The translations under genes were made by a program, and so were the position numbers. A stretch of 37,477 nt of DNA from an uncultured Opitutia bacterium. GTDB lineage: Bacteria > Verrucomicrobiota > Verrucomicrobiia > Opitutales > UBA953. Below are positions 32,301 through 35,710 of this stretch, piece by piece. The notes under the pieces were generated by a model. It made no database searches. It had not been told where the DNA came from and saw only the letters and a program-made list of their open reading frames with translations. Location of the stretch: contig CAIKWA010000085.1 in NCBI GenBank assembly GCA_903831005.1, positions 1 through 37,477 of the forward strand, in the 5' to 3' direction. Each line of letters opens with the position of its first letter. The stretch's first letter is position 1.

Positions 32301-32498
32301 CCCGCGGAGCTCGCGGTGCTGCGCAAGGGTCTCGATAAGCGTCTAGCGACTTATGCCGCCGACGCCACCCTGGCACCGAAGCTCCTCGCCACGGGCCTGA
32401 GCCCCGCTGCGCCCAACCTTGATCGTAACCAGTTGGCCGCCTGGACCGCCACCGCGAATATCCTTCTCAACCTCGACGAAACCGTCACCCGCGAATGA
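29364..32498 (+). CDS. PSD1 protein 3: planctomycete cytochrome c + DUF1549 + beta domain + DUF1553
   Basis: The ORF track starts at a TTG (29343); the ATG at 29364 gives a proper Sec signal (MRPSRPLLAVASALLFASSASA) and 1044 aa. CYACH is at 39-43 and CCRCHDHKYDPI at 325-329, again two c-heme motifs. DUF1549 has YGENMAMQWLDFARYADSNGFQSD. A beta-rich module (about 470-620; VEANLAPGLLTAVRLEALPDDSLPN, NFVLSAFEVQLKT) resembles a carbohydrate-binding jelly roll and sits between DUF1549 and DUF1553. DUF1553 has HPLTGRIWVNRSWERFFGIGLVKTSENFG, RFRLPAEVIRDQALWTAGLL and RSNTPMQALSLLNE. The stop overlaps the following ATG by 4 bp (ATGA). The function of the family is unproven. Confidence 0.9.
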   Translation: MRPSRPLLAVASALLFASSASAERIQFNRDIRPIFSDTCYACHGPDENKVKGKLRLDSLDAARKGGKSGEPAITPGHPEKSEVMKRLLTTDADDHMPPAEFHKVLTKAQIALVEQWIKEGAEYQGHWAFQTPVKPAVPTIPAGGNAIDAFLAQGLAAKGLKPNGDAPKATLLRRAALDLTGLPPSDADLQAYLADSSSNAWSKALDRLMASPHYGENMAMQWLDFARYADSNGFQSDTQRTMWPYRDWVIKAFNDNKPFDAFTVEQLAGDLLPHATRDQIVATAFHRNHRLNGEGGRIVEEWFAENVIDRIETTGSTWMGLTMNCCRCHDHKYDPISQKEFYQFFAYFNSNEESGVLGEFGGAGTTRRGGNTYPTLSLPTDEQQRKIDETMAALTAAEAALKAIPTSQPERFAKWLERQRAAFSKEGVAWQALSGEKVSAKENAEFKRLDDGSWLVSGGTAAKESYTVEANLAPGLLTAVRLEALPDDSLPNKSLGRAFNGNFVLSAFEVQLKTADGKSTALPLVKAEADYDQPGWSIAKLAPTPMTKGNAKKADTGKSGWAIGGNLSENRVPRKAIFTIAPTSIPTGAKLVLVMRHESFANHSIGRFRLNVSGQDPKLLSLKTDPAAEAARRLLAKPADQLTKADNQALVKLFADSPEHPRAQAIAKVAAAKMASEAAQGEPVNVMVMKELPKPRDAFVLLRGEYDKIGPKVERALFRALPPMPAGEPNNRLGFARWLVSGTHPLTGRIWVNRSWERFFGIGLVKTSENFGSQAEWPSNPELLDWLAIEFVERKWDMKAMQKLIMSSSAYRRSAAVTAEMLEKDPDNRLLARGPRFRLPAEVIRDQALWTAGLLVDKQGGPSVKPYMPEAVWDETSVYGDMRNYKADTGEGLWRRSLYTIWKRTAAPPTMLLFDSAGREVCTVKRSRSNTPMQALSLLNEVTFVEAARKLAEQSLRQPGDNDAKLAWTFRKVVRRDATPAELAVLRKGLDKRLATYAADATLAPKLLATGLSPAAPNLDRNQLAAWTATANILLNLDETVTRE

Positions 32499-33958
32499 AC
32501 TGCAACGACCGTCAATTCCTCGGACTGGATCAGGCCACGAAAATGGCCCTGTCCCGCCGCACCTTCATCAAGGGTTCCGCCGGCGGCATCGGCCTAGCCG
32601 CACTGGGCTCACTCATAGGCACGCCCGCTTTTGCCGCTAACCCCGGGCTCGGTTTCCCTAACTTCAAACCGAAGGCGAAACGGATCATCTACCTCTTCCA
32701 GTCTGGCGCTCCGTCGCAGATGGACCTTTTCGACCCGAAGCCACAACTGGAAGCGATGCGCGGCAAGGACCTCCCGGAATCTATCCGCAAGGGCCAGCGC
32801 CTGACCACGATGACCTCGGGCCAGAAGAACTTCCCCGTCGCGCCGTCGATCTTCAAATTCAAGCAGTACGGCCAGTCCGGTAACTGGTTCAGCGAACTGA
32901 TGCCCCACATGTCTACCAAGGCTGACGAATGGTGCATCGTCCGCGCAATGCACACGGAAGCTATCAACCACGACCCAGCGATTACGTTCATGCAGACCGG
33001 CAGTCAGCTGGCCGGCCGCCCAAGCATCGGCTCCTGGTCCGCCTACGGTCTCGGCAGCGAAAACGCCGATCTCCCCGCCTACGTGGTGATGTCCTCCTTC
33101 GGCAGCGGTCGACCCGACGACCAACCGCTCTACGACCGTCTTTGGGGTGCCGGCTTCCTGCCGTCCAAACTCCAAGGGGTGAAGCTCCGCAATAAAGGCG
33201 AACGTGTGCTCTTTCTGAAAGATCCCGAAGGCATCCCCCGCGAAGTGCGCCGCGAACAGCTCGATGAACTCGCCGCCCTCAACAACCAGCGCCACGGCAT
33301 CCTGGGCGACCCAGAGATTCAAACCCGCATCTCGCAATACGAGATGGCCTTCCGCATGCAGACGAGCGTCCCTGACCTACTCGATCTCTCCAAGGAACCG
33401 CAACACGTGCTCGACCTCTACGGACCCGACGTGAAGCGCCCAGGCTCGTACGCCTCCAATTGCCTACTCGCCCGTCGTCTCTGCGAACGTGATGTCCGTT
33501 TCGTCCAACTCTTCCACATGGGTTGGGATCACCACGGCGGCCTCCCCAAGGCCATCAAAGGCCAGTGCAATGATACCGACCAAGCCACGGCCGGCTTGCT
33601 CACCGACCTCAAGCAACGCGGCCTGCTCGACGATACGCTCGTCGTCTGGGGCGGCGAATTCGGTCGCACGACCTACTCGCAAGGCTCGCTCACGGAGACC
33701 AACTACGGCCGTGATCACCACCCTCGCTGCTTCACGGTCCTGATGGCCGGCGCCGGCGTCAACAAGGGCACGACCTACGGCGAATCCGACGACTTCAGCT
33801 ACAACATCGTCAAGGATGGCGTCCACGTGCACGACCTCAACGCGACGATTCTACACCTGATGGGCGTCGAGCATACCCGCCTGACCTACCGTCACCAAGG
33901 CCGCGACTTCCGCCTCACCGACATCCACGGTGAAGTGGTTAAGAAGCTGCTGGCCTAA
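32495..33958 (+). CDS. DUF1501 protein 3 (Tat-exported)
   Basis: The protein is 487 aa. After a 24-residue lead comes a Tat signal (SRRTFIKGSAGGIGLAALGSLIGTPAFA), so a start further in (ATG at 32543, MALSRRTF) is also possible; I keep the overlap start, which shares ATGA with the PSD1 stop. DUF1501 landmarks are LFQSGAPSQMDLFDPKP, INHDPAITFMQTGS, SIGSWSAYGLG, QYEMAFRMQTSVPDLLDL, WGGEFGRTTYSQGSL, YGRDHHPRCFTVLMAGAGV and HVHDLNATILHLMGVEH. The C-terminus (GRDFRLTDIHGEVVKKLLA) matches that of the first DUF1501. It is the last gene of the plus-strand run and is followed directly by the inverted-repeat element. The enzymatic role is unknown. Confidence 0.88.
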   Translation: MNCNDRQFLGLDQATKMALSRRTFIKGSAGGIGLAALGSLIGTPAFAANPGLGFPNFKPKAKRIIYLFQSGAPSQMDLFDPKPQLEAMRGKDLPESIRKGQRLTTMTSGQKNFPVAPSIFKFKQYGQSGNWFSELMPHMSTKADEWCIVRAMHTEAINHDPAITFMQTGSQLAGRPSIGSWSAYGLGSENADLPAYVVMSSFGSGRPDDQPLYDRLWGAGFLPSKLQGVKLRNKGERVLFLKDPEGIPREVRREQLDELAALNNQRHGILGDPEIQTRISQYEMAFRMQTSVPDLLDLSKEPQHVLDLYGPDVKRPGSYASNCLLARRLCERDVRFVQLFHMGWDHHGGLPKAIKGQCNDTDQATAGLLTDLKQRGLLDDTLVVWGGEFGRTTYSQGSLTETNYGRDHHPRCFTVLMAGAGVNKGTTYGESDDFSYNIVKDGVHVHDLNATILHLMGVEHTRLTYRHQGRDFRLTDIHGEVVKKLLA

Positions 33959-34145
33959 TTGAATAGTTGATCTGTTGAACGGTTGAACCGTTGGCCAGAC
34001 CTAGGCCAATTGCGGCTCGGCATTAATCAGTCCATTAGCCCTCTCCGGGGCACTAAACTTTCCTCCAAGTAAGCGATCAGCAATGAGAAGCAGCAGTCAG
34101 CCTGTCTGGCCAACTTTTCAACTGATCAACGTTTCAACTGATATA
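33959..34145. repeat. Intergenic element with about 42-bp terminal inverted repeats built of 8-bp units
   Basis: The left arm (33959-34000) is a run of diverged 8-mers: TTGAATAG, TTGATCTG, TTGAACGG, TTGAACCG, then TTGGCCAGAC. The right arm (34104-34145) is its imperfect reverse complement: GTCTGGCCAAC, TTTTCAAC, TGATCAAC, GTTTCAAC, TGATAT. The outer 11 bp of the inner ends (GTTGGCCAGAC) match perfectly. About 100 bp lies between the arms, with no ORF. It fills the whole gap between two convergent genes, beginning immediately after one stop codon and ending 2 bp before the other, so it may also act as a two-way terminator. It looks like a small non-coding mobile or REP-like element. Confidence 0.65.
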
Positions 34146-34147
34146 GG

Positions 34148-35659
34148 TCACTTCCCCGTCTGCTCCCGGTACATCACCTTGAAGGGGTTCTCGGCCGGGC
34201 CGGCGACGTTCTCGTTGACCATCATCGGGCGGCATTCCTTCCACCAAGCATCGTGTTTGGCGATCAGGTCGGCGACGACTTCCGGGTGCTGCGCGGCGAC
34301 ATCGGTGGTCTCACCGTAATCGGCGCTGAGATCGAAGAGCTGCCAATTGGCAGGTGTCGGCTCGAAATCGGCCGGCGACTGCTGGGCCTTCTTGCCTGCC
34401 TTGGCCTTCGTCTTCTTGGCCACCCCCTTGGAGGCCAGCTTAGCGAACGAAGCCGATGATACCAGATGCCAACGGGCGGTGCGCACGCTGGTCTCAGCAT
34501 ACTTACCGACCTCGGGATCGACACCTTTAACCATGTTGCCCCAGCGGCCGAGGTGCGTGACGAGCACGCGGTCCGGCCAGGCGATATTCTCGCCGACCTT
34601 GGCCCGCAGCAGCGGCACAAGGCTACGCCCTTCAATTTGGGCCTTCATCTGGCCGGAGGCGGCGGAGCCGGTGAGTTCGAGAATCGTCGGAGCGAAGTCG
34701 ACGTGCGCGGCAAGGGCCTTGACGTCCGCCGGATTGAACTGTCCCGGTAGTCGCCAAAAGGACATGGCGCGGATGCCGCCCATGAAGGCCGTGCCCTTGG
34801 AGGCACGCATGCCAGCGTTGAAGACCTTAGTGCCAGCGGTGCCGCCGTTGTCGTTCATGAAGATCACGAGGGTATCCTTGGCGATACCCAGGGACTCGAC
34901 CTTAGCCATGAGCTGGCCGACGTTCTGGTCGATGTTGTGTAACATGCCGAAGAAGTTTTCGGTGTCCTTACCGAGCCCCTTACCCTCGTAGAGGGCCGCG
35001 TCTTCTGGCCTGGCGTGATAAGGACCGTGGGGCGCGTTCGTGGCGATATAAGCGTAGAAGGGGCGCTTGGCGGCAGCCTCGCCTTCGATCCACTTAGTCG
35101 CCTGTTTGAAGAATTCGTCGGTGCAATAGCCGGCGGTCTTCACAAACTTACCGTTATGCAGAAGTGTGGGGCCGTAGTACGAGTTGCTAGGGACGTCGCC
35201 ACAGCTGCCAGGATAGCTCTGGCCGATACCACCGGCGCCATGGATATAGACTTCGTCAAACCCACGCTTGTTCGGCTGATACTCAGCCTCGTCGCCCAGG
35301 TGCCACTTACCAAAGATACCCGTTCGGTAACCCGCCTTTTGTAACTGCTGGGTCAGCGTCACGGCACCAAGCGCCAGTCGTTCGCGTTCGAGGATGGTAT
35401 GGGTGATGCCGTTCTTGAATTCATGCCGGCCAGTCAGCAAGGCACTGCGCGTCGGCGAACAGGTCGGTGAAACCTGGAAATCGGTGAAGCGGACGCTCTC
35501 TGCGTGCAGCTTGTCGAGGTTCGGTGTCTTCAGGACGGGATTACCGTGAGCGCTTAGATCGCCGTAGCCCTGGTCATCCGTGAGGATGAAGATGATATTG
35601 GGACGCTCGGCAGCCAGCGACAGCAGTGAGCAAAGAAAAAATCCGGCAAGCAGTCTCAT
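34148..35659 (-). CDS. Secreted arylsulfatase-type sulfatase
   Basis: Taking the start at MRLLAGFFLCSLLSLAAERP (35659; the track opens 18 bp earlier at 35677) gives 503 aa with a Sec signal. The sulfatase core is complete: metal-binding ILTDDQGYGD (Asp28/Asp29), the formylglycine site CSPTRSALLTGR with Cys67 and Arg71, GIFGKWHLGDE, and VIFMNDNGG for the second metal pair. The C-terminal subdomain includes FAPTILELTG and NWQLFDLSADYGETTDVAAQHPEVV. The Cys in CxPxR would need formylglycine-type maturation, and no maturase gene is in the window. The expected reaction is removal of sulfate from a sulfated glycan or related ester, consistent with the neighbouring glycan-directed genes. It is convergent with DUF1501 protein 3. 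Confidence 0.9.
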   Translation of the reverse strand: MRLLAGFFLCSLLSLAAERPNIIFILTDDQGYGDLSAHGNPVLKTPNLDKLHAESVRFTDFQVSPTCSPTRSALLTGRHEFKNGITHTILERERLALGAVTLTQQLQKAGYRTGIFGKWHLGDEAEYQPNKRGFDEVYIHGAGGIGQSYPGSCGDVPSNSYYGPTLLHNGKFVKTAGYCTDEFFKQATKWIEGEAAAKRPFYAYIATNAPHGPYHARPEDAALYEGKGLGKDTENFFGMLHNIDQNVGQLMAKVESLGIAKDTLVIFMNDNGGTAGTKVFNAGMRASKGTAFMGGIRAMSFWRLPGQFNPADVKALAAHVDFAPTILELTGSAASGQMKAQIEGRSLVPLLRAKVGENIAWPDRVLVTHLGRWGNMVKGVDPEVGKYAETSVRTARWHLVSSASFAKLASKGVAKKTKAKAGKKAQQSPADFEPTPANWQLFDLSADYGETTDVAAQHPEVVADLIAKHDAWWKECRPMMVNENVAGPAENPFKVMYREQTGK

Positions 35660-35710
35660 GGGGGATAGGCTCAACATGAGTCCGCCCCCGCGGAACGCAA
35701 CCCCTCAGCC

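Follow-up and report, generated by a model that had tools for sequence, protein, structure and literature searches.

A genus-specific family of phased GTTGA combs as a candidate bidirectional gene-end signal in an uncultured Opitutia bacterium

The gap between a convergent DUF1501 gene and sulfatase gene of an uncultured Opitutia bacterium holds an element that consists of two phased combs in opposed orientation, both of a genus-specific type in which (GTTGANNN)n leads into GTTGGCCAGA. Its most likely function, with a probability of about 0.4 as judged from sequence comparison, would be to mark gene ends in both directions, as a signal that the host maintains and that is recognised by its sequence. 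Combs of this family are dispersed, intergenic and polar, face inward where they are paired and are enriched in convergent gaps, and their cores are fixed while spacers and interior drift.

The window, which is the whole stretch of 37,477 nucleotides that was analysed, belongs, as contig C85, to a draft genome (G000) that is incomplete at 1.55 Mb. The complete space between the DUF1501 gene (+ strand) and the sulfatase gene (- strand) is 189 bp long (33959-34147) and is delimited by a TAA at 33956-33958 and a TCA (reverse of TGA) at 34148-34150. The first-pass annotation had described paired inverted arms of 8-bp units that share an inner end, and both features are confirmed: the octamers and cap at 33966-33999 have an inverted counterpart at 34105-34138, and the cap GTTGGCCAGA on the left returns as TCTGGCCAAC on the right (Table 1). 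It had also described an element that fills the gap exactly, from the base after one stop codon to 2 bp before the next. The interval 33959-34145 is indeed essentially the whole gap, but no sharply bounded element is present, and 7 bp on the left and 9 bp on the right lie between the arms proper and the stop codons.

Table 1 Features of the convergent gap and its flanking genes (window positions).
Feature	Positions	Strand	Description
Left flanking gene	32495-33958	+	DUF1501 protein; 3' end toward element; PF07394, E 7.7e-159
Degenerate outer unit	33959-33965		TTGAATA; outer end of left arm
Left comb	33966-33989	+	Three GTTGANNN octamers; spacers TCT, ACG, ACC
Left cap	33990-33999	+	GTTGGCCAGA; inner end of left comb
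Interior	34000-34104	none	105 bp
Right cap	34105-34114	-	TCTGGCCAAC (reverse of GTTGGCCAGA)
Right comb	34115-34138	-	NNNTCAAC x3 (reverse of GTTGANNN); spacers TTT, TGA, GTT
Right flanking gene	34148-35677	-	Sulfatase; 3' end toward element; PF00884, E 1.7e-52

The units of the left arm are, in order, TTGAATA (degenerate), GTTGATCT, GTTGAACG, GTTGAACC, and GTTGGCCAGA; those of the right arm, read reversed, are GTTGAAAC, GTTGATCA, GTTGAAAA, and GTTGGCCAGA. The cap GTTGGCCAGA is itself an octamer-like inner unit, and GTTGGCCN is frequently repeated elsewhere. The best inverted repeat joins 33965-34000 to 34104-34139 (36 nt, 81% complementary), with 103 nt separating the arms. All seven matches to GTTGAANNGTTGA with one mismatch in the window lie in this gap, against 0.54 expected, and the element matches no Rfam family model up to E 1. 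Several PSD1/DUF1553-type and DUF1501 gene pairs, as well as sulfatases, are also present in the window between 3472 and 34147, as is typical of polysaccharide-degrading Verrucomicrobiota; among these DUF1501/sulfatase-type genes, the profile check covered the pair adjoining the element.

Octamer arrays of this kind, for which the first-pass annotation had suggested a genome-wide search, form a dispersed family and are not unique to the gap. The exact pattern CTGGCCAACNNNTCAACNNNTCAAC is matched 251 times, with a maximum of 28 per genome, and the matches are spread over 31 of the 55 congeners; the reversed control pattern is matched 19 times. A looser search finds arm-like matches in 23 of 41 congeners. 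Since 31 of the 55 congeners carry the exact comb and none of about 170 genomes from other genera of the order does, the comb family is genus-specific. The nearest relatives of the window among public genomes are metagenome assemblies of freshwater Opitutae (Verrucomicrobiota). Published work describes freshwater Opitutae that are small and GC-rich and whose gaps are very short (PMC5673642), and these may belong to the same genus as the window.

The comb pair is present in the same convergent gap of six further congeners (G011, G012, G027, G001, G029, and G025), and in G022, where the contig ends, the left arm alone is visible. Between congeners, the cores at this locus are 93-100% identical and the caps 95-100%, whereas the spacers are only 39-72% identical and the third codon positions of the flanking DUF1501 gene 60-77%. 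The interior is 44-86% identical, and its length is constant at 104-105 bp. These figures, which come mainly from one orthologous locus, argue that the five-base GTTGA cores are under selection in place across at least six species. In a second orthologous gap (G039, G011, G001, and G044), the length is kept at 175-176 bp and the interior is divergent. Conservation in place and a gap sequence unique in the genome had together been named as signs of a plain bidirectional terminator; the locus is conserved among relatives, but the sequence family is not unique.

In the DUF1501 protein tree, the carriers of the element form one clade, which includes one locus without the element (L047; support 88/91). 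The sister of the carrier clade (L053) has a gap of 3 bp at the locus, so that an empty site of the kind sought in a relative exists, and in a more distant clade (L050-L052) the same gap is occupied by 7-bp TACTC arrays. The simplest history, as read from the tree, would be one gain and at least one loss of the element. Because the dispersed paired element is absent from the sister lineage, where the gap is 3 bp, it was probably gained or grew in a minimal gap, as the first-pass annotation had proposed.

Filled and empty sites, together with dispersed copies that have inward arms, could also be produced by a MITE- or REP-like mobile element, with the comb arms as terminal inverted repeats and a transposase acting in trans, and some flanking modules are shared within one genome (G039, L206/L207; G001, L229). 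We consider this origin unlikely; the annotation, too, had called the 8-bp periodicity unusual for a MITE. Target duplications were sought at the edges of the locus and against the empty site L053, and none is seen. The copies have no common interior: interiors are unrelated between loci and as low as 44% identical even between orthologs. Many arms are solitary, with the terminal inverted arms paired in 27 gaps and one orientation only in 62, and the cores are conserved in place under apparent selection. In addition, the Y1 transposase (TnpA_REP, PF01797) occurs in 28 of 55 congeners, and its counts are weakly correlated with those of combs (Spearman rho 0.28, p 0.04, in 55 genomes; rho 0.33, p 0.06, when the more complete ones are taken). 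Four comb-rich genomes (G039, G041, G025, and G012) are without Y1.

The survey of the family's placement covered 169 arrays, from 60 loci and from long stretches totalling 0.83 Mb, with genes called by a codon-usage script. All but 3 of the 169 arrays are intergenic. Arrays are present in 32 of 90 convergent gaps and in 56 of 510 other gaps (odds ratio 4.5, p 4e-8) over all loci, and in 7 of 33 and 6 of 175, respectively (odds ratio 7.6, p 0.001), in the long stretches. Because the loci were fetched for their arrays, the long-stretch comparison alone is near unbiased; the long stretches were mostly fetched regardless of arrays, the window contig and a few others having been chosen in the knowledge that an array was present. 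Of the combs in co-directional gaps that start from a gene at most 60 nt away, 19 are at its 3' end and 6 at its 5' end. The occurrence of some combs at 5' ends or in divergent gaps counts against a gene-end signal.

Opposed combs face inward, with octamers outside and GGCC caps inside, in all 27 gaps that have both orientations, and this order holds in convergent, co-directional, and divergent gaps alike. In gaps with one orientation, the start of the comb is nearer to a gene than its cap is in 53 of 62 (p 1e-8). The spacers carry 0.3-1.0 bit of information, versus 1.7-1.9 for the next core, which lay outside the search pattern.

A plain bidirectional RNA hairpin, serving as a terminator or a 3'-end protector, would make the arms matter through pairing alone. 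The gap strand does fold with an energy far under that of its shuffles (z -6.4 as RNA, -5.5 as DNA), and the caps form an 11-bp helix. Inverted repeats of at least 9 bp are also commoner in convergent than in divergent gaps (84% versus 12% in G011, for example), and the constant interior length at the orthologous locus is of the kind expected. However, the pairing of spacers with their own partner arm does not exceed that with unrelated arms (66 of 162, versus 67.4 expected by chance; p 0.64, n = 27), and solitary combs have no degenerate or weak partner (p 0.13). The inward order in 27 of 27 gaps is not accounted for by pairing alone, because an outward order folds equally well. The consensus fold of seven orthologs has no covariation in the arms, the cores being fixed as sequence, and no convincing conserved stem in the interior; since the arms are invariant, this fold says nothing on pairing. 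A scan for promoters and terminators finds nothing: no intrinsic terminator, with a short GC-rich hairpin and a T tract, is present on either strand between 33700 and 34400, so that the plain terminator that the annotation had offered as the alternative has no terminator-like site in the gap. Pairing alone is thus improbable as the explanation. Because spacers pair at chance level and solitary combs are without a partner, comparison of the arrays argues that what is conserved is the word and its phase, and hence that recognition is of the sequence and not of a paired hairpin.

The comb is part of a wider gap architecture. A motif-free search finds phased pentamers in gaps of the genus that have nearly all a period of 7 or 8: GAGTA and GCGGT every 7, and GTTGA, GAGGC, and GTGCA every 8. 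The G-rich strand runs from the nearest gene into the gap for GAGTA (24 of 25), GTTGA (20 of 23), and GAGGC (17 of 20), and GCGGT is the exception to this common polarity. GTTGA combs lie outside GGTAGGG hairpins, by 38 to 3. At mid-gap, the GC skew of G011, G039, and G040 turns from positive to negative in most gap types, divergent gaps included. This flip is also seen in comb-free gaps of comb-rich genomes, most clearly in G011; comb-poor congeners and two Rho-bearing relatives, G091 and G106, show it less strongly. The gaps look like nested mirror images. Nested inverted modules (CTCAAAGGGAGACCGGAAACCGG ... mirrored) lie inside the comb pairs at L227, L257, and L210, which are the orthologous convergent gap in G001, G044, and G039, with interiors of 303, 254, and 109 bp, respectively. 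G106 has a different comb, GAATA every 7 bp, which is common in its gaps, and 10-bp periodic arrays are seen in G091.

That unrelated 7- and 8-bp combs (GAGTA, GAGGC, GTGCA, and GTTGA) sit in the same places, that comb-free gaps also have the left-right skew flip and that 7-bp arrays occupy the DUF1501-sulfatase gap of relatives would all suit neutral growth of simple repeats by slippage or gene conversion, without function and with a polarity that comes from strand-biased mutation. Slippage, however, does not fix five positions and free three, as the cores (93-100%) and spacers (39-72%) of the orthologs require, and we regard neutral growth as decidedly unlikely.

The whole genus is without the termination factor Rho: PF07497 finds it in none of 8 genomes of the genus, and TIGR00767 in none of 55 (G000 included), among them 22 nearly complete ones. 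One or two copies are present in nearly every other genome of the order, and the sister genus has a match at 1e-159. Canonical Rho-dependent ends are therefore unavailable in the genus, and a Rho-independent end signal is plausible, if unproven. In a cyanobacterium that lacks Rho, the majority of transcript ends match none of the known pathways (PMC13289151). Three related ideas did not hold. A confinement of combs to Rho-less genomes is ruled out by the Rho-bearing G106 with its 7-bp GAATA comb; a rise in the number of gap hairpins after the loss of Rho is not supported, Rho-bearing relatives being equally rich; and a reading of UCAAC combs as Rho rut sites was dropped, as the sense strand of combs next to 3' ends has GTTGA and Rho is absent from the genus.

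Each comb begins about 15 nt past a stop codon and reads into the gap. A putative sequence-specific factor may recognise the 8-nt-phased GTTGA words, either in DNA or in the RNA of the polymerase leaving the gene. This would set a boundary both ways between the DUF1501 and sulfatase genes, by transcript end formation, termination or insulation, perhaps aided by a hairpin from the folding of the two arms. Combs are also numerous upstream of genes, where they are on the non-coding strand, which suggests a more general rule: whichever transcript runs out of a gene into a gap would contain the comb in sense orientation. A bolder version, in which GTTGA combs and their sister combs (GAGTA every 7 bp) mark entry into the gap for a putative sequence-specific factor that ends transcripts leaving genes, sense or antisense, and so would replace Rho termination and suppress pervasive transcription, is a long shot. 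Against the gene-end signal, the site has no T-tract terminator, hairpins in gaps are not commoner than in Rho-bearing relatives, the Rho-bearing G106 has its own 7-bp combs, and the exact comb is absent from 24 of the 55 congeners, which are likewise without Rho. A conserved, polar, phased sequence family at the gene ends of a Rho-less genus bears on how transcripts end without Rho.

Among known systems, intrinsic bidirectional terminators at convergent genes resemble the GTTGA element in place and foldback, but the element has no T tract, and sequence rather than pairing is conserved. REP/BIME extragenic palindromes and MITEs are likewise dispersed extragenic inverted repeats at gene ends; GTTGA arms differ in being phased combs with free spacers, many of them solitary, with no target duplication and a weak correlation with Y1. 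A looser parallel is provided by the TAACTGA direct repeats of Beggiatoaceae, Cyanobacteria, and Bacteroidetes, the function of which is unexplained and for which an RNA-binding factor has been proposed (PMC4679880). These are also lineage-restricted, intergenic, phased short repeats, but their heptamers are perfect, most of them lie immediately before a start codon, and there is one inverted pair only.

The closest known repeats are the intergenic heptamers GGGAATC/(GGGANTN)n in Xanthomonas and GGGGA(Y)T in Nostoc (PMC4692102), which follow the polarity rule of the GTTGA combs. The comb shares with them heterogeneous 7-8-bp tandem units, an intergenic location, a polarity toward the nearest ORF, and convergent pairs, and by these features the comb family is a variant of a known but unexplained class of intergenic phased short repeats. 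It differs in its 8-bp period, GTTGA core, and inner GGCC cap, in not forming G-quadruplexes, in a stronger convergent enrichment, and in a core conservation that is seen across species at one orthologous locus. The Xanthomonas and Nostoc repeats would then be one case of a wider class with a common polarity rule, and the GTTGA locus provides, for units of this class, a five-base core that appears to be under selection.
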